From: Emcibacter sp.
Lineage (GTDB): Bacteria > Pseudomonadota > Alphaproteobacteria > Sphingomonadales > Emcibacteraceae
Direction: 5' to 3'
Assembly: GCA_021741205.1 (NCBI GenBank)
Contig: JAIOYI010000012.1
Location: 1-64,000 of the forward strand
DNA: 64,000 nucleotides
Shown here piece by piece: positions 28,349 through 36,714 of this stretch (within the stretch, counting starts at the first letter, position 1; the number at the start of each line of letters is the position of its first letter). The translations under genes were made by a program, and so were the position numbers. The notes beneath the pieces were generated by a model. It was not told where the DNA came from. It ran no database searches and saw nothing but the letters and a program-made list of their open reading frames with translations.

Positions 28349-29110
28349 ATGGTTGAAGATTATAAGGGTCGTTATGGCACCTCTTCTCATGCGAGCACAG
28401 CCGCCGCCGTTGATGAAGGGCTTCGGGCCTATATGCTCACGGTATATAACTATATGGCTTCTGCACTTACACTGACGGGGCTTATGGCCTATGTTACGGC
28501 CAATGTACCTGCACTATATTCTCTGTTATATAATTTTGAGACTTTGCCAGATGGAACGGTGTATCTTAGCGGCCAGACCATGCTTGGGTTTATTGTTATC
28601 TTTGCACCCTTAGCCTTGGTTCTTTTCCTCAGTTTTGGTATTAACAAAATGCAAGCCTCCACCGCCCAAATGGTTTTTTGGCTCTATGCAGGACTTGTGG
28701 GGATGTCGTTATCCTCAATATTATTTGTTTATACAGGCACAAGTATCGCCAAAACTTTTTTTGTGACCGCTGCGGCCTTTGGATCATTAAGCCTTTATGG
28801 CTACACGACCAAACGCAGTCTTTCTGGCATGGGGTCTTTCCTGATGATGGGTCTGTTTGGCCTTATTATCGCATCCATTGTAAATATTTTTATGCAATCT
28901 AGTATGATGGACTTTATTATTTCTATGGCTGGCGTTCTGATTTTTGCAGGTCTTACCGCCTATGATACCCAAAAAATTAAGCTGATGTATATGCATAGTG
29001 ATGGAAGCGAAACCGCCTCTAAAAAGGCCATTATGGGCGCCCTTAGCCTTTACCTCGACTTTATCAATATGTTCTTGTTTTTGTTACGGTTCATGGGTAA
29101 TCGAAACTAA
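28349..29110 (+). CDS. Bax inhibitor-1/YccA-type membrane protein
   Basis: A 253-residue inner-membrane protein with seven predicted helices. The N-terminal VDEGLRAYMLTVYNYMASAL and the C-terminal GLTAYDTQKIK motif with DFINMFLFLLRFMGNR are typical of the BI-1/YccA family. Members are linked with pH-sensitive calcium leak and with FtsH interaction (YccA). Here ftsH is 16 kb away. An AAAAGGATG site lies about 10 nt before the start. A terminator follows at 29132. Confidence 0.9.
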   Translation: MVEDYKGRYGTSSHASTAAAVDEGLRAYMLTVYNYMASALTLTGLMAYVTANVPALYSLLYNFETLPDGTVYLSGQTMLGFIVIFAPLALVLFLSFGINKMQASTAQMVFWLYAGLVGMSLSSILFVYTGTSIAKTFFVTAAAFGSLSLYGYTTKRSLSGMGSFLMMGLFGLIIASIVNIFMQSSMMDFIISMAGVLIFAGLTAYDTQKIKLMYMHSDGSETASKKAIMGALSLYLDFINMFLFLLRFMGNRN

Positions 29111-29131
29111 ATTAGATCACAGTATTATTCG

Positions 29132-29164
29132 AAACGGCTCCTTTTAAGGGGCCGTTTTTTTTAT
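29132..29164 (+). terminator. Terminator of the BI-1 gene
   Basis: A 12-bp stem AAACGGCTCCTT/AAGGGGCCGTTT (one G-T pair) and a run of eight T residues, 21 bp after the BI-1 stop codon. Confidence 0.9.
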
Positions 29165-29264
29165 AATATTGCAAAGATTAAAAAAACTTTGTTTCCCAAT
29201 ATTAATCATTGCCTTTCAGATGGTTTATAAGTAGTCTGCGGCTCACCTTATAGACACACTATAA

Positions 29265-29341
<77 letters not shown>

Positions 29342-29395
29342 CTAATCCAGATCAAAACTGAGAACTTCCGTATTTAAGGATTTATTTGCTTGCTC

Positions 29396-31277
29396 GTTGC
29401 GGGTTGACCAAGATTTTTGAATAGCTACAATATGCTGCTGCTGCTCGTGCTGCTGCTGCTGGTTGCGGGTTGACCAAGATTTTTGAATAGCTACAATATT
29501 GTATTTTTGTAACACAATCTCGGTCTTGTTGCGGGTTGACCAAGATTTTTGAATAGCTACAATGGCGTGTCTTTTTTTATGCGTAATCAAGCGGTTGCGG
29601 GTTGACCAAGATTTTTGAATAGCTACAATGTATTAAGAGCGCTAAAGCGCAACAATATTGTTGCGGGTTGACCAAGATTTTTGAATAGCTACAATGATAT
29701 TGACCCAATAGCAATAGCATACATTGTTGCGGGTTGACCAAGATTTTTGAATAGCTACAATTGAGGGGAAAACAGTTTTAGAGTGGTTGGGGTTGCGGGT
29801 TGACCAAGATTTTTGAATAGCTACAATATATATAAAAAATAGGTAACACAAGAAAAGTTGCGGGTTGACCAAGATTTTTGAATAGCTACAATTGCGGGGG
29901 GATTTCCCCTACCAAATCGTCAGTTGCGGGTTGACCAAGATTTTTGAATAGCTACAATAAAAATTAATTGCAATATTTATCATTTTTAGTTGCGGGTTGA
30001 CCAAGATTTTTGAATAGCTACAATTGCCCGCAAACAAGGGCCATTTAAAACAAAGTTGCGGGTTGACCAAGATTTTTGAATAGCTACAATGATGATAACG
30101 GCACGTTAATGATGACCATAGTTGCGGGTTGACCAAGATTTTTGAATAGCTACAATTAAATCTTCATCTATAACCTCCCCTTTAACGTTGCGGGTTGACC
30201 AAGATTTTTGAATAGCTACAATTCGTTATCGGCTGCACCGCCTGAACGTTTGGTTGCGGGTTGACCAAGATTTTTGAATAGCTACAATTAATTCTCAACG
30301 CCTTTCATCCACGTTGCCGTTGCGGGTTGACCAAGATTTTTGAATAGCTACAATGTATTAAGAGTGTTAAAGCGCAATAACATTGTTGCGGGTTGACCAA
30401 GATTTTTGAATAGCTACAATCTGCTTATAATGCTGCTGCTGCTGCTGCTTGTTGCGGGTTGACCAAGATTTTTGAATAGCTACAATAAACTCTGTATCAA
30501 ACACATTTGCGTATCTGTTGCGGGTTGACCAAGATTTTTGAATAGCTACAATGTTTCTCCGGAAGACTCGGCAAGGCTTTCAGTTGCGGGTTGACCAAGA
30601 TTTTTGAATAGCTACAATATAATGGACAAGTTCCAGTTGTCCTTAAAGGTTGCGGGTTGACCAAGATTTTTGAATAGCTACAATCCAACCGCTATGCGTT
30701 TGATCGCATTACTGGTTGCGGGTTGACCAAGATTTTTGAATAGCTACAATACTTCAGGCCATGATGCGGGAAGCCGAGCCGTTGCGGGTTGACCAAGATT
30801 TTTGAATAGCTACAATCCACCCCAATATGAACCCTCTGCAAAGTCAGTTGCGGGTTGACCAAGATTTTTGAATAGCTACAATACCAAAAACGGAATATCC
30901 GTTCTCTTTGTTGTTGCGGGTTGACCAAGATTTTTGAATAGCTACAATCTATAATGTCTCTATAGGGCAATATCAAGAGTTGCGGGTTGACCAAGATTTT
31001 TGAATAGCTACAATCAATGTCGTCAGGCGTAACAACGTCTGCAGTTGCGGGTTGACCAAGATTTTTGAATAGCTACAATATTTGCTAAGGAATTAGGCAT
31101 AACGCCTCAGTTGCGGGTTGACCAAGATTTTTGAATAGCTACAATTCACACTGGTTTTTTTTAATAATTGGCGGGGTTGCGGGTTGACCAAGATTTTTGA
31201 ATAGCTACAATAAAATTACATTTTTCAACGGTGCAGGTACCGTTGCGGGTTGACCAAGATTTTTGAATAGCTACAAT
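29396..31277 (+). CRISPR. Type II-C CRISPR array, 29 repeats and 28 spacers
   Basis: Twenty-nine repeats of 36 bp, all identical as read, begin GTTGCGGGTTGACC and end GAATAGCTACAAT. The 28 spacers are 30 nt, except 29 nt at 29828-29856 and 31015-31043. The tracrRNA at 35841 pairs with the plus-strand repeat, so crRNAs are plus-strand, opposite to the cas genes. The 54 bp between tRNA-Arg and the first repeat would be the leader side. Spacers 4 (29630-29659) and 15 (30355-30384) are 26/30 identical. Spacers 1 and 16 are mostly CTG triplets. No degenerate end repeat is seen, so the repeats do not show the polarity. Open frames on the other strand are translations of the repeat. Confidence 0.99.
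29404..29431 (+). promoter_or_regulatory. Repeat-embedded promoter (first of 29 copies)
   Basis: Within each repeat, TTGACC (-35-like) at repeat positions 9-14 and TACAAT (-10-like) at 31-36 are 16 bp apart. Initiation seven bases beyond TACAAT would fall at about spacer base 7, giving a crRNA with a guide of about 24 nt. The coordinates are those of repeat 1; the same holds for all 29 repeats. This matches the known Neisseria II-C design, in which the -10 lies at the repeat end. Activity itself is inferred. Confidence 0.7.
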
Positions 31278-31281
31278 AGAT

Positions 31282-31325
31282 AAGCGCTAACGGATTGAAA
31301 ATACAGAAACGTTAGCGCTTTTCTC
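31282..31325 (+). terminator. Inverted repeat closing the CRISPR array
   Basis: AAGCGCTAACG at 31282-31292 and CGTTAGCGCTT at 31310-31320 form a perfect 11-bp stem with a 17-nt loop, followed by TTCTC. It starts four bases after the last repeat. It reads best as a plus-strand terminator with a short T-tract, which fits plus-strand crRNA synthesis. Confidence 0.55.
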
Positions 31326-31349
31326 ATTTTTAAAGCCGCTATTTCAGGG

Positions 31350-31694
31350 TCAAAATAATAAAAATTGTTCATTTTTTTCTGTATTTTCCCGTTGTTTTCC
31401 CTTGAAAAGCTTGATGTTTTCATATTGTTTGTCGGTAATGGTTACGATTTGCACCGAACCATATTCGGGCAGATTTTCCTGAATGCGTTTTTCAATGGTT
31501 TGGCCACTATCCTTACCCGAAGTCATACGATAATAGACGGAATATTGGGCCATGGCAAATCCTTGATCCAGTAAAAAATTACGGAACTGAGTCGCCGCCC
31601 GACGGTCGGTTTTTTCAACCACAGGCAAATCAAACATGACCAATATCCACAAAATATTATATCCACTTAACCAGAATTGTTGATCGCGAATCAT
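31350..31694 (-). CDS. cas2: CRISPR-associated endonuclease Cas2
   Basis: A 114-residue protein. ILVMFDLPV near residue 17 carries the Cas2 aspartate strand. It is followed by RRAATQFRNFLLDQGFAMAQYSVYYRM and the dimer strand region VQIVTITDKQYENI. With Cas1 it forms the complex that inserts new spacers. It is the last gene of the minus-strand cas9-cas1-cas2 set, with a 2-bp gap to cas1. The C-terminal tail (GKQRENTEKNEQFLLF) is typical of type II Cas2. Confidence 0.95.
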   Translation of the reverse strand: MIRDQQFWLSGYNILWILVMFDLPVVEKTDRRAATQFRNFLLDQGFAMAQYSVYYRMTSGKDSGQTIEKRIQENLPEYGSVQIVTITDKQYENIKLFKGKQRENTEKNEQFLLF

Positions 31695-31696
31695 CG

Positions 31697-32617
31697 TTAA
31701 AATAAATTTCCTGATCTTATGAGTTTTGGAAATTCCAATTTATTTTCCTTTTCATGCAAGCTTGTCACAAATGTTTGGGCCAAACGGTGCATTGAATTCA
31801 TAACCGTCGAGACGCCTTTTTCAAGTCTTACGTCACTGTCCAAAATTTTCGCTAAATCCTTTTTTATATCGGGCGTTAAGGGATCATCGTTTATTTCCCC
31901 CTTATCAATGATTTTCCGCACCGCCATATCCACCAAGGGGCGATAAGGTTCCATAAGGTCATCCACCAAAGCAAAAGGATTTTTACGATTATGATGATGA
32001 ATACCCAAGGCGGGGGTTAAACCCGCCCCACATATGGCCCGCGCGGTTGCCGCCCGTAGAATGCTGTAGCCATAGTTAAGCAAGGTATTTCCCGCCCCCG
32101 TTTCACGGTCACGGCGAAAATCCGAGCCAAATAGGGCGGGCCAATAATGGCGGGCGGCCTGCGCCTCCATATTTTCTGGATCACCAGATTTTACCCTTTT
32201 GATGAGTATTGATAATTCCTGAAGGGGGTTTTCCGATCCCTTAAAATATTCAAGGATTACGGCCTGATTGTTAATTTTTTCCCGCACCACCGATTGCCAT
32301 AAACGCTTCATTAAGGGTTGTCCGCAATCAATTTGCGCCCATAAAATGCCCGTTTGATCAAAATGATTATCATAAGGTAGGGAAAAGGATAAGGGATGGT
32401 AATTTTTACCACAAACCATAATGGGTGCCTTGCGCAGAGCAAGTTCGGCAATCAAGGTTTTTGACAGGGTGATTTGATGGGCCGAAAGGATAAGAACCGT
32501 GATATCATCCAAGGGAACACGACCAATTTCCACATCATCGCGTTTTATGGTCATAAAACCCCGATATTTGGAAAGATAATTACCGTCGGCGGCAATTTCC
32601 ACAACCTGTGTCACCAT
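31697..32617 (-). CDS. cas1: CRISPR-associated integrase Cas1
   Basis: A 306-residue protein of usual type II length. The metal-binding glutamate is in PENMEAQAARHYWP (about 150), and the histidine/acidic site is in LGIHHHNRKNPFALVDDLMEPYRP (about 206-229). It integrates spacers next to the leader. The start lies 3 bp after the cas9 stop, so it is co-transcribed with cas9. All catalytic residues look intact, so adaptation should be possible. No csn2 or cas4 is present, which places the system in subtype II-C. Confidence 0.96.
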   Translation of the reverse strand: MVTQVVEIAADGNYLSKYRGFMTIKRDDVEIGRVPLDDITVLILSAHQITLSKTLIAELALRKAPIMVCGKNYHPLSFSLPYDNHFDQTGILWAQIDCGQPLMKRLWQSVVREKINNQAVILEYFKGSENPLQELSILIKRVKSGDPENMEAQAARHYWPALFGSDFRRDRETGAGNTLLNYGYSILRAATARAICGAGLTPALGIHHHNRKNPFALVDDLMEPYRPLVDMAVRKIIDKGEINDDPLTPDIKKDLAKILDSDVRLEKGVSTVMNSMHRLAQTFVTSLHEKENKLEFPKLIRSGNLF

Positions 32618-32620
32618 TGT

Positions 32621-35600
32621 TCATCCCTTTCGTGTGCCATCGGGTTTAATATATAGCTTTCTTTTAAATGTTGCCTTTAACACATTGATGGAAATAAATT
32701 GCTGTTTGCTATCGGTATCATATTGGGGACGAAGATCAATTAGGTTATTTGTGGTGCTGTATCCCCCAACCCGCATGATTTTATTGTCGTCGCCCTCTTT
32801 CAATTCTATCATGTCATTTTTAAACAGACGGGTGATGAATTTGGCGGCGGGATGAATGGGTTCTCCATCGATTTTGCCATTATTTTTGTCGGGCGTTTTT
32901 CCCTTGCAATCGGCATAGGACCAAAAGACACCCTTCCATTCAAATTCGCCTTTTTTCCATTTGCCTGCCTTTCCCTTTGGTATTTGCCAGATATCCACGC
33001 ATACATATGAATCAGGGGCATAGGCCTTAAAATCTGCCGACGGGATAATAGTTGCCGATTGATTGGAAACTAATATTCTAATGGTTTTGATATTGTTATC
33101 ACGACCAAAATCAGCAAGCACCTTGTCCAGCTTTACCCCATTCGCCTTTGCCTCATAAACATGTTGGGCAATGCGTGTGCGCCAGCCACGGTTACGAATA
33201 GCACCAATTTCCTTATCCGTAAGGGCGGCAATCTTTTTCCGAGTGACGAGATTATATCCCTTAAGATCAGCATCGCGTTTATCGGGTTGGACAATACCGT
33301 AAGCGGTTTCCTTGAACATTTTTCCGTTTACGCCGTGGTCTGCCTTATAAGAAATGATCATACTGTTGAGTTTGTCTTTTAACTGATTGCGCAAGGGTGT
33401 GATATCAGGAAGATTGATTTGAACAAAGTCATTTGCCCCCCGTTTGGTTTGGTTTGATACCTGTTGCAGCATCCCCCGATCCGTCAAACCCACAACAAAG
33501 GCATCAATAGCATGATGACGGTGATCATTTCTTTCTTTATAATTATGATCGCCGATCAGGCTGTTTAAATGCCATTTGCCACGCATCATGGCGGTAAGGC
33601 CGCCAGGGATAGTGGCTATTTTATTTTGATCGCAAATATGGCTCAGATATCGTTTGGTCAATTTTGAAATATGGGCATTATCGGTGAGCTGACGGGCAAG
33701 AAAGCCACCCTCCTTCTCAAATCTTTCCATAGCATCCTGATCAAATCGCCAACGTTTATTTTGGGGAAGCGATTTTGCCCGTTCTGCGATTTTATGCCAG
33801 ACCATTCCTTTATCGGCATGTTGATCATGGCCAAATGCCTCGTAAGGGGTACCGTTGCCTTTCAAGCGGTTTGCTTGTCTTATGGCAACGGTCAGATTTG
33901 CTGTTCCATTATCCAATGTTCTGGAAAATGGTAGGATATGCTCAATCTCGGCCTCCCCATTAAACAACATAGCGGCGGAAATTACCCGCCCTGAAAAGGG
34001 ACAACAACGAGCAAACTCATCACGCCCTAGTTCCTCCCATAGGCGCATTTTTTTTAAATCAAGGCCGCTTGGTTCACGGCCATTATTTAACTCACCAAAA
34101 AGGATAACCCGTTTATCATTTGCCTTGGCAAATTCTTTATTTTGTATGGCAATGTCATCACGTGCCTTGGCTGTTTTCTTTAAATCCCGCACCAGTTCCA
34201 CATGAATTTCAGATGGGGAACCAAAACGATCAATTAAGCGATTGAGTAATTTTCTCAACTGATTTAGGGCCACATGAACGGTAGGATTGTTGATTTTACC
34301 GTAATATTGTTCAGGCTTTTGTGTCGAATCATAATGGGCAGGCTTTGCCCCAATGACGCTACCCTTTAATAATTCCCCATAATAGGGAAGTTTATCCAAT
34401 AAGCGATCAACCTCATATTTACTGTGATGAAAGAACACACCATCATCGTCATAGACTTCACGGACGGCCTTATCATAACCAAGGTTATCCTCTCGCATGA
34501 TAGCCGCACATCTTTCCATAAATTTGCGGGAAAGATGGGTCGTGGCTGATGTTAATTTAAATTTACTTACCGCCTTTGCTTGATCCTCAGTAAATGAAAA
34601 CTCAGAAATCAGATCCACAATAAGCTGTTCATCCTCATCGGCATCATGCAAGATTTCCAGCAAATCATTTTGCTCGGTTGGGGTAAGGCTATGCCATTTT
34701 TCTCCAAGCATTTCATCCTTTTGCATTTCAACGGCGGTTGCATTACCCTTTAAGATATCACGGGAACCATTCTCCAAATTAAATAAGCATTCTCTTGGAA
34801 AAACAAAACTTCCATCGGGATTTTTTAATTTTCTAAGTGAATTGAAGCTCGCCGTTTTTTGTGTGTTCAAAAGCGCAATAACGCTTTTTCTTTGATTATT
34901 GCTAAGCTCGTGTTTTTCTTGATTGCTATCATAATACTGCAGATTGCCGACCTCTTGAAGAATACGAAATTCATGAGCAATGGGTAGGTCTTTATGGGCG
35001 CGGTATTCCTCAATAAAAAATTCACAGCGACCTTTCTCCACGGGTTTTAATTTCCGCTGAAAAAAGATGCCATCAAATGCTTGTTGTTTGTTGCCATTTC
35101 TCAAATCATTCCAATTCTGATCAGACAGATTGTGATGAGGTGCTTGCATTTCTCTAATTTTGTCAAATTCATCTAGATACATGGCACGATCAGCATAAAA
35201 GTCTCCTTCTTCACCACGAAATCTAATGGATTTATTATGCCTTAATTGTTGATAGAGCCATTGTCCCAATGTTTGATCACCAAGTTCATGACGTAATGCA
35301 GAAATTTTTGGCTTAATCTTTCCCGTTTCTTCATCGTCACCGTCACTTTTGCGGTTTGACAAAAAGCCACGTCGTTGCGCAATATGAAACAGCGTGCGCC
35401 CCAATTCATGTGGGTTTAGGATACGTTCCACACTTGCGGCTCTTAATTCATAGGGGTCTAATTTTTCCAATTCTTTTCTTTTTGTTTTATTTTCTGGCAT
35501 TAAACCTAAATCTATTAAGCGATCCATTAATTGATTTTTACGCTGAATTCGCCGATCTCGGTTACGCCTTGCGCCACGTGCCATTCTTCTTGCGACGGCT

Positions 35601-35761
35601 AAACTTTCCCCAACTCTATCTTTACTAGAAGGTTCCCTACCATCTGAAAAAATACGAACCCCAGAGTCTATAAGATAATCTATTGTCCCAGATGGCGTTA
35701 GTGAAAAGGCTGCCCATCCTAGTGAATTCGTTCCCATATCTAATGCTAAACGCCATGTCAT
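32621..35761 (-). CDS. cas9: CRISPR effector nuclease Cas9 (type II-C)
   Basis: A compact 1046-residue Cas9. RuvC-I has LALDMGTNSLGWA (Asp8). The arginine-rich bridge helix is at about 57-76 (ARRMARGARRNRDRRIQRKN). RuvC-II has HVELVRD (Glu522). The HNH domain has IEHILPFSRTLD (His608) and the matching Asn631. RuvC-III has HRHHAIDAF (His749/His750, Asp753). Every catalytic residue is present, so it should cut both DNA strands guided by crRNA-tracrRNA. The size and lack of csn2 fit II-C. An AAGGGG site lies about 8 nt before the ATG. The gene is divergent from tracrRNA, about 80 bp away. The PAM cannot be read from sequence. Confidence 0.97.
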   Translation of the reverse strand: MTWRLALDMGTNSLGWAAFSLTPSGTIDYLIDSGVRIFSDGREPSSKDRVGESLAVARRMARGARRNRDRRIQRKNQLMDRLIDLGLMPENKTKRKELEKLDPYELRAASVERILNPHELGRTLFHIAQRRGFLSNRKSDGDDEETGKIKPKISALRHELGDQTLGQWLYQQLRHNKSIRFRGEEGDFYADRAMYLDEFDKIREMQAPHHNLSDQNWNDLRNGNKQQAFDGIFFQRKLKPVEKGRCEFFIEEYRAHKDLPIAHEFRILQEVGNLQYYDSNQEKHELSNNQRKSVIALLNTQKTASFNSLRKLKNPDGSFVFPRECLFNLENGSRDILKGNATAVEMQKDEMLGEKWHSLTPTEQNDLLEILHDADEDEQLIVDLISEFSFTEDQAKAVSKFKLTSATTHLSRKFMERCAAIMREDNLGYDKAVREVYDDDGVFFHHSKYEVDRLLDKLPYYGELLKGSVIGAKPAHYDSTQKPEQYYGKINNPTVHVALNQLRKLLNRLIDRFGSPSEIHVELVRDLKKTAKARDDIAIQNKEFAKANDKRVILFGELNNGREPSGLDLKKMRLWEELGRDEFARCCPFSGRVISAAMLFNGEAEIEHILPFSRTLDNGTANLTVAIRQANRLKGNGTPYEAFGHDQHADKGMVWHKIAERAKSLPQNKRWRFDQDAMERFEKEGGFLARQLTDNAHISKLTKRYLSHICDQNKIATIPGGLTAMMRGKWHLNSLIGDHNYKERNDHRHHAIDAFVVGLTDRGMLQQVSNQTKRGANDFVQINLPDITPLRNQLKDKLNSMIISYKADHGVNGKMFKETAYGIVQPDKRDADLKGYNLVTRKKIAALTDKEIGAIRNRGWRTRIAQHVYEAKANGVKLDKVLADFGRDNNIKTIRILVSNQSATIIPSADFKAYAPDSYVCVDIWQIPKGKAGKWKKGEFEWKGVFWSYADCKGKTPDKNNGKIDGEPIHPAAKFITRLFKNDMIELKEGDDNKIMRVGGYSTTNNLIDLRPQYDTDSKQQFISINVLKATFKRKLYIKPDGTRKG

Positions 35762-35802: not shown

Positions 35803-35834
35803 TTGACTCACACAACCAAAAGAAGCAATATAAT
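35803..35834 (+). promoter_or_regulatory. Candidate tracrRNA promoter
   Basis: TATAAT at 35829-35834 is placed so that transcription would start at about 35841, exactly at the tracrRNA anti-repeat. TTGACT at 35803-35808 is 20 bp upstream of it, longer than ideal, so the -35 is uncertain. Confidence 0.55.
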
Positions 35835-35840
35835 AGATGA

Positions 35841-35923
35841 GTGTAGCTACTCAAAAATCTTGGCAACTTGTTAACAAGACTTTTGTCATAAGATTTAAAG
35901 ACTGGGTTCGCCCAGTCTTTTTT
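35841..35923 (+). ncRNA. tracrRNA of the type II-C system
   Basis: An 83-nt RNA gene. It starts GTGTAGCTACTCAAAAATCT and continues TGGCAACTTGTTAAC, which is the complement of the repeat with one A-C mismatch and one bulged U. The inner part pairs through several G-U pairs with the GTTGCGGGTTG end of the repeat. After the anti-repeat comes a small nexus-like hairpin (GAC-TTTT-GTC at about 35879-35888) and then a perfect 10-bp terminator stem AAAGACTGGG-TTCG-CCCAGTCTTT with a T-tail. This pairing fixes the crRNA strand as plus. Confidence 0.92.
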
Positions 35924-36246: not shown

Positions 36247-36714
36247 ATGAACTTTGATAAGATAGATTTAGCACTACTTGACTTATTGCAAAAGGATATT
36301 AGTATACCGATTGATGAATTGGCAAGGCGGGTGGGATTAACGAAAACTCCCTGTTGGCGGCGAGTTCAGAAATTGGAGAAAACAGGTGTTATTAAGGGTC
36401 GGGTTGCGCTTTTAAATGGGGCGTTATTGGATCGCAATGTATCCGTCTTTGTACAGGTAAAAACCAGTCAGCATAATCGGGCATGGCTAGAAAATTTTTC
36501 AAAAGTTGTTTCCGATTTTCCAGAAGTCGCGGGATTTTACCGGATGTCGGGAGAATATGATTATCTGTTACGGGTTATTGTGAAAGATATTGTGGCTTAT
36601 GATAATTTCTATAAACGATTTATCGAAGCGACGAGCCTGACCGATGTTACCTCTAATTTCGCTATGGAAGAAATTAAGAATTCCACAGAAATATATCTTG
36701 GGAATTTTCATTAA
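36247..36714 (+). CDS. Lrp/AsnC-family transcriptional regulator
   Basis: A 155-residue protein with an N-terminal winged helix-turn-helix (IPIDELARRVGLTKTPCWRRVQKLEKTGVIKG, about 19-51) and a C-terminal RAM ligand-binding domain (VFVQVKTSQH through GEYDYLLRVIVKD). Such regulators respond to amino acids and often control an adjacent gene. Here the class V aminotransferase gene follows 48-60 bp downstream on the same strand, so it is a plausible target. Confidence 0.92.
   Translation: MNFDKIDLALLDLLQKDISIPIDELARRVGLTKTPCWRRVQKLEKTGVIKGRVALLNGALLDRNVSVFVQVKTSQHNRAWLENFSKVVSDFPEVAGFYRMSGEYDYLLRVIVKDIVAYDNFYKRFIEATSLTDVTSNFAMEEIKNSTEIYLGNFH

Follow-up and report, generated by a model that had tools for sequence, protein, structure and literature searches.

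The CRISPR array of a type II-C locus in Emcibacter sp. carries a promoter-like sequence in every repeat, and this raises the question of where its crRNAs begin. We analysed a window of 64,000 nucleotides (positions 1 to 64,000 of contig JAIOYI010000012.1, assembly GCA_021741205.1) together with related cas9 loci. The best reading, which we consider highly probable from the comparison of sequences, is that the crRNAs are made one by one from a sigma70-type promoter within each repeat. The locus has the following features.

29265-29341, plus strand: tRNA-Arg gene, ending 54 nt before the first repeat.
29396-31277, plus strand (crRNA sense): CRISPR array of 29 identical 36-nt repeats and 28 spacers, its direction taken from the tracrRNA terminators of relatives.
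29404-29431, plus strand: promoter-like unit of the first repeat, TTGACC at 29404-29409 and TACAAT at 29426-29431; the unit recurs in all 29 repeats.
31250-31277, plus strand: promoter-like unit of the last repeat, with a start expected at 31284 from the position of the -10 box.
31278-31331, plus strand: conserved 3' leader at the acquisition end, with a hairpin at about 31282-31320 and a T-rich tail; probable intrinsic terminator.
31350-31694, minus strand: cas2, convergent with the array; NCBIfam and PADLOC matches.
31697-32617, minus strand: cas1 of type II; NCBIfam and PADLOC matches.
32621-35761, minus strand: cas9, 1046 aa; NCBIfam and PADLOC matches.
35840-35923, plus strand: predicted tracrRNA with the anti-repeat at 35840-35875 and a terminator hairpin at 35897-35920 followed by a T-run; the start site is a prediction.

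Judged by its gene content, the locus is of type II-C. The operon cas9-cas1-cas2 is on the minus strand and the array is on the plus strand, as is usual for this type; no match to csn2 or cas4 was observed in three flanking ORFs, and a tracrRNA with an anti-repeat is predicted upstream of cas9 and divergent from it. The anti-repeat at 35840 pairs with nearly the whole repeat (score 59, the next best being 34), and a TATAAT box is found upstream of the predicted tracrRNA at 35829-35834. The genome encodes RNase III (rnc). Rfam yielded the tRNA, one sub-threshold match on the opposite strand of the tRNA, and no CRISPR RNA. The 53 N-terminal residues of the product of the gene at 36247-36600, beside the tracrRNA, weakly match Csa3 and CARF3 in PADLOC; by eye, we take it to resemble an Lrp/AsnC-type regulator.

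All 29 repeats contain TTGACC at positions 9-14 and TACAAT at positions 31-36, 16 nt apart, and the end of TACAAT is the repeat-spacer junction, exactly as given in a preliminary description of this sequence. The same description stated that TG is absent from the place of an extended -10. Indeed, all 29 copies have AG there, and thus the unit is not an extended -10 of the Neisseria type. It matches the sigma70 consensus at ten of 12 positions with a spacing of 16 nt, and so has the near-consensus boxes and the 16-18 nt spacing of a sigma70-type promoter. A promoter scan of the region 29100-31500 produced 33 sites, 29 of them the plus-strand repeat units at 10/12, whereas shuffled sequences produced 5.7 on average (sd 2.7); the 29 copies count as a single independent event.

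An exact search of the same genome found the 29 array copies of the repeat and none beyond the array. The promoter motif is not enriched in this genome: the pattern TTGAC-N(17-19)-TANNNT has 307 occurrences, 29 of which are the array copies, versus 272 for the reversed control pattern, and the stricter TTGAC-N17-19-TATAAT occurs 5 times versus 9 for the control. Matches outside the array occur about once per 18 kb of strand, which corresponds to a chance of about 5e-4 per given 36-nt stretch and strand. Thus the motif by itself is weak evidence, and the case rests on conservation among relatives.

The spacers are 30 nt long in 26 cases and 29 nt in two. Spacers 4 (29630-29659) and 15 (30355-30384) have four differences, all of them transitions, and spacers 1 (29432-29461) and 16 (30421-30450) are both CTG-rich; these two related pairs likely reflect repeated sampling of related targets. 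A protospacer search for PAM and direction produced 0 matches in phage sequences and two weak matches in plasmids (E 0.5), taken as chance. An exact search of viral contigs gave no match for the repeat or for five of the 28 spacers, three of which were queried as 24-25 of their 30 nt.

Related loci were collected from named genomes (80 cas9 loci kept of 536 confirmed), from 385 genomes of the class, 46 of which had a match, and from 398 genomes of the phylum, 39 of which were above the family cut-off. Our own script found 98 arrays with 83 unique 36-nt II-C repeats, which form 53 clusters. The controls were 33 repeats near other cas1 genes, mostly type I-like, for which 40 regions with cas1 matches were taken.

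The direction of transcription can be fixed without using the letters of the repeat, from the position of the terminator relative to the anti-repeat. Among 82 repeat types (that of L193 left out), 65 have a clear anti-repeat. In 53 of these 65 systems a terminator follows the anti-repeat at a distance of up to 100 nt; one system has a terminator within an equal distance on the other side, and this one has the downstream terminator too. When 52 repeats are oriented by the tracrRNA terminator alone, their direction coincides with that of the promoter motif in all 52 and disagrees in none. The claim that the repeat promoters point into the next spacer is thereby confirmed as to direction, and it is further borne out by the conserved register, the absence of a 5' leader promoter and the -10 boxes of the oldest repeats, all described below. 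In the treponemal locus L052 (9965-17579), cas9 is on the plus strand, and two ORFs resembling cas2 and cas1 by size and place are on the minus strand. The array lies between and faces the putative cas2/cas1, so that its direction seems to follow cas2, not cas9.

The 52 oriented repeats were compared with the sigma70 consensus in 50 registers. The best fit has the -10 at positions 31-36 and a spacing of 16 (8.33 of 12; the next is 6.48, the median 3.4), and the reverse strand reaches 4.85 at best. Scored separately, the -10 reaches 4.58 of 6 when it ends at position 36 but no more than 2.60 in any other place, and the -35 reaches 3.75 at position 9 versus 2.92 or less in other places. TA...T is kept at the -10 in 49 of the 52 repeats. 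Over the 53 clusters the score averages 8.36; shuffling the repeats lowers it to 3.95 (sd 0.18), and on the reverse strand it is 4.40. None of the 33 control repeats, which are shorter and richer in GC than the II-C repeats, scores above 6 anywhere.

This conservation does not coincide with pairing. In the 65 systems with a clear anti-repeat, positions 14-25 are paired in 91-100%, position 9 in 62%, position 35 in 42% and position 36 in 28%. However, among 64 repeats (67 unique repeats minus three that are not 36 nt long), 61 have retained T36 and 59 have retained T9, whereas the better-paired middle varies. Thus pairing with the tracrRNA does not explain the conservation of these two positions. 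The clade of the window's Cas9 spans Alphaproteobacteria, Binatia, Gammaproteobacteria and Spirochaetes, and TTGA and TA...T are invariant in 16 of its 17 repeat types. The 17th (L048) has CCTACT with TG; it is the clade's one type without TTGAC and was left out of the table of positions. Alphaproteobacterial and treponemal II-C arrays such as L039, L040, L043 from Insolitispirillum peregrinum DSM 11589 (TTGACC-16-TAAGAT), L206, L051 and L070, known here from sequence, have TTGAC-16-TANNNT without TG at the junction, as in the window's array, but differ from it in the spacers, the repeat middle and the letters of the -10.

One could suppose that the array is transcribed from outside, for instance by read-through from the tRNA-Arg gene, into one long precursor, and that TTGACC and TACAAT are kept only for tracrRNA pairing or Cas9 binding. 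The tRNA gene faces the array, no terminator-like site is listed between it and the first repeat, and an rnc gene together with an anti-repeat pairing with most of the repeat would suit such a precursor. However, in the 16 repeat types of the Cas9 clade T36 and T31 are invariant although paired in just 25% and 56%, respectively, in contrast to positions 15-28, which vary but pair in 75-100%. The 5' flanks of relatives speak against it as well: conservation is at most 0.10 bit at each of the last 30 positions before the first repeat (72 arrays), and the last 100 nt before 65 arrays contain no excess of promoters (best score 6.09 versus 6.36 in shuffled sequences). These arrays and flanks thus have no conserved leader promoter upstream, as expected of II-C arrays with crRNA promoters in the repeats, and the window's array is without a recognisable 5' leader. 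We consider an external precursor improbable, and transcription from the repeats remains the preferred reading. Read-through from tRNA-Arg could yield an extraneous crRNA such as those treated in the accessible part of PMC12080349.

The oldest repeats provide a further view of this register. Acquisition of spacers at the 3' end of II-C arrays is described in the available text of PMC12638026. In agreement with it, of the 85 arrays with both flanks, 46 are more degenerate at the first repeat and two at the last, and the two ends of the other 37 are equal. The ends of the window's own array are equal in degeneracy and its first repeat is undecayed; its 3' flank matches the 3' flanks of relatives. 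For the counts of decay and truncation, each repeat type with a sufficiently long 5' flank was represented by a single array (70 and 69 arrays, respectively). In the 36 decayed first repeats of the 70, mutated cells number 119/288 at positions 1-8, 27/216 at 9-14, 26/576 at 15-30 and 1/216 at 31-36. Among 26 truncated first repeats, 20 retain 24 nt or more of the 3' end. Since no spacer precedes the first repeat, its 3' part is most simply explained as kept to serve spacer 1 as a promoter. However, decay or truncation proceeding inward from the edge would spare the 3' end without selection too, and the -35 is not specially spared.

Recognition by Cas1-Cas2 is another possible reason for the conservation of T36 and the repeat edges. 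If the conserved ends, TANNNT included, were mainly an integrase recognition site, promoter activity would be incidental. This would fit the fact that the 3' end of the repeat abuts the conserved leader, the apparent entry point of new spacers, and that GTTG at the opposite end is conserved too. However, integrase recognition predicts neither that the best-scoring -35 lies at exactly 16 nt, nor that TA...T is kept in the oldest repeat, at the far end from acquisition; and the promoter activity of the C. jejuni repeat has been measured, according to the accessible text of PMC3656092. An origin mainly in integration therefore seems very improbable to us, the preferred explanation of the conserved 3' end still being a promoter in each repeat.

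The two boxes of this promoter probably do not have equal weight. The preliminary description treated the -35 as the key element, and suggested that TTGAC-16/17-TANNNT be sought in related II-C repeats. We considered 80 repeats, leaving out the 37-nt repeat of L193 and those of L080 and L081, which lack TA at positions 31-32. As this set was selected for TA, the figures to use for TA are the counts in 64 and 52 repeats given above. TTG is at positions 9-11 in 32 of the 80 and at positions 8-10, that is with 17-nt spacing, in 15; TG is present in 32, together with the -35 TTG in 17, and 18 repeats have neither. TTG at a spacing of 16 or 17 is present in 47 of 80 repeats versus 2.5 expected when positions 5-30 are shuffled, a figure inflated by shared ancestry; the window's form, TTGAC without TG, is seen in 17. 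Repeats with TTG at 9-11 come from loci of lower GC content (mean 0.487 versus 0.573, p=1.3e-4), and all 15 repeats of hosts with GC below 45% have TTG or TG. The idea of a trade-off between -35 strength and TG did not hold: Fisher's test gave p=1.0 at each of the cluster levels 0, 3 and 5, and p=0.70 at level 7.

One possibility is that the -10 alone is the working promoter, whereas TTGACC reflects the shared ancestry of the part of the repeat bound by Cas9 and adds little. TTG at 9-11 is limited to the 32 repeats, it shows no trade-off with TG, and in old repeats the -35 decays more than positions 15-30. These three observations speak against the -35 as the key element, and they agree with a working -10 alone, as does the location of TTGACC at the inner edge of a conserved block 1-14 that includes the stem bound by Cas9 and tracrRNA. 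The presence of TTGA in 16 of the 17 repeat types of a Cas9 clade of several phyla, the excess of TTG at spacing 16 or 17, inflated as it is by shared ancestry, and the presence of TTG or TG in every repeat of the low-GC hosts point the other way, and on balance we find a -10 acting alone rather doubtful, if plausible. Probably, the -10 is the common core and the -35 is a lineage variant strengthening it.

From these observations we infer the following course of crRNA production. RNA polymerase would bind TTGACC-16-TACAAT of repeat n and start transcription about 5-7 nt into spacer n. The transcript would cross repeat n+1, and that copy would pair with the tracrRNA. The guide, of about 24 nt, would have a primary 5' end, and the 3' end alone would need trimming, probably by RNase III acting on the repeat:tracrRNA duplex. 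The start about 7 nt into the spacer and the guides of about 24 nt, both proposed in the preliminary description, agree with the crRNAs of C. jejuni, which are primary transcripts starting at position five of each spacer (accessible text of PMC3656092), and with those of Clostridium cellulolyticum, which contain 23-26 nt of spacer (accessible text of PMC7038990). However, there is no excess of purines at base 7 of the spacer: 13/28 in the window, and 0.490 versus 0.505 in 1509 spacers. In these 1509 spacers (83 repeat types), positions 28-29 are purine-poor (0.43) and position 30 is A-rich (0.305); this bias next to the following repeat perhaps originates in acquisition. The further proposal that RNase III would not be needed does not follow, because rnc is present, the long duplex of the anti-repeat with nearly the whole repeat is conserved, and C. 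jejuni combines repeat promoters with 3' trimming by RNase III.

In N. meningitidis, Zhang et al. (2013) reportedly found a functional promoter in each repeat, a dispensable RNase III and no external leader promoter. The promoter there is an extended -10 with TG, whereas the window's repeat has a -35 and no TG. The repeat of L189, which we take to be the meningococcal repeat, has no TTG at the -35. In C. jejuni, both dRNA-seq and primer extension have established repeat promoters (Dugar et al. 2013, PMC3656092). According to the accessible part of that paper, its II-C array is similar to the window's in having 36-nt repeats, a -10 at the end of each repeat and a tracrRNA. The repeat end GGTAAAAT is an extended -10, whereas TG is absent from the window's repeat, and 3' trimming by RNase III and tracrRNA is demonstrated in C. 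jejuni, while for the window's array it is only expected. The II-C array of C. cellulolyticum is also opposite to the cas genes and has a promoter-like repeat end, but the likeness is to an extended -10 only, and the internal start is unproven there (available text of PMC7038990). Repeat promoters have been suggested for F. columnare and F. psychrophilum and were not found in R. anatipestifer, as far as the available text of the source goes. They are called general for II-C in the accessible parts of PMC12080349 and PMC12638026, so that the array does not depart from a II-C rule. Repeat-driven crRNA synthesis is a known II-C trait, of which the window's array has a fuller -35/-10 form.

The start expected for the last repeat, 31284, lies beyond the array and faces the convergent cas genes. 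The main stem of a hairpin in the 3' leader (-20 kcal/mol, z -5.25) begins approximately at this position, and the hairpin may cap the outward promoter of the last repeat. Strong hairpins within 60 nt past the last repeat are found in 58 of 72 arrays, followed by a T-run in 46, compared to 12 hairpins, two of them with a T-run, in the 5' flanks read outward, and three hairpins in shuffled 3' flanks. Among 69 hairpins the T-run is preferentially on the side given by the direction of the array (5.07 versus 3.06 of 8; values of 5 or more in 47 versus 7; Wilcoxon p=1.5e-9). RNAalifold predicted no pair in 14 hand-picked flanks nearest to the window's type, and seven pairs, five of them compensatory, with a covariation term of -0.23 kcal/mol, in 18 flanks picked for a similar hairpin offset. 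As these flanks were hand-chosen from the 72, the evidence from covariation is weak, and the counts over all 72 are better.

Position 13 past the last repeat is A in 90% of the 72 arrays (1.41 bits). Within the leader hairpin of such 3' flanks (e.g. 31278-31337 in the window), a motif close to TAAC-N3-TTGA keeps a constant distance to the last repeat; it is perhaps an anchoring site of the integrase. L106 has a second array, apart from the first, with a near-identical copy of the leader, and thus the leader element travels with the array. In the second arrays L054:19094-20119 and L153:14674-15302, the 3' end is degenerate and the leader hairpin is missing; these arrays are probably fragments cut from the main array.

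Taken together, a II-C array would have one more repeat promoter than spacers, the last one facing cas2-cas1-cas9, and the leader at the acquisition end would double as an intrinsic terminator shielding the cas operon from antisense transcription. We put this forward tentatively, its chances being in our view slightly below even. Since new spacers enter between the promoter and the terminator, such a cap would always stay in place. All repeat promoters would read toward the newest spacers, and run-through accumulating in that direction could favour recent memories despite the 3' position of the leader. A terminator after convergent genes is unsurprising; that the terminator is the leader is less expected. 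We found no statement that the leader is a terminator in the literature searched or in the accessible parts of PMC12080349, PMC8092290 and PMC5006608; subscription papers lay mostly outside this search, and absence is therefore unproven. The available text of PMC5006608 describes a palindrome in a II-C leader. Feussner et al. (2025), in the accessible text of PMC12080349, describe, as here, a promoter per repeat, acquisition at the last repeat and a decayed first repeat, but their terminators are on the 5' side, whereas the hairpin described here is on the side of the 3' leader. If the leader is indeed a terminator, this would explain how an array of outward promoters can stand head-on against its own cas operon.

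A complete -35/-10 promoter in the repeats of a multi-phylum clade would widen the known range of repeat promoters past the extended -10, and such a repeat would be a self-contained unit for multiplex guide expression. For the bacteria themselves, promoters within repeats would turn every CRISPR memory into a gene of its own, and the array would no longer depend on a leader promoter.
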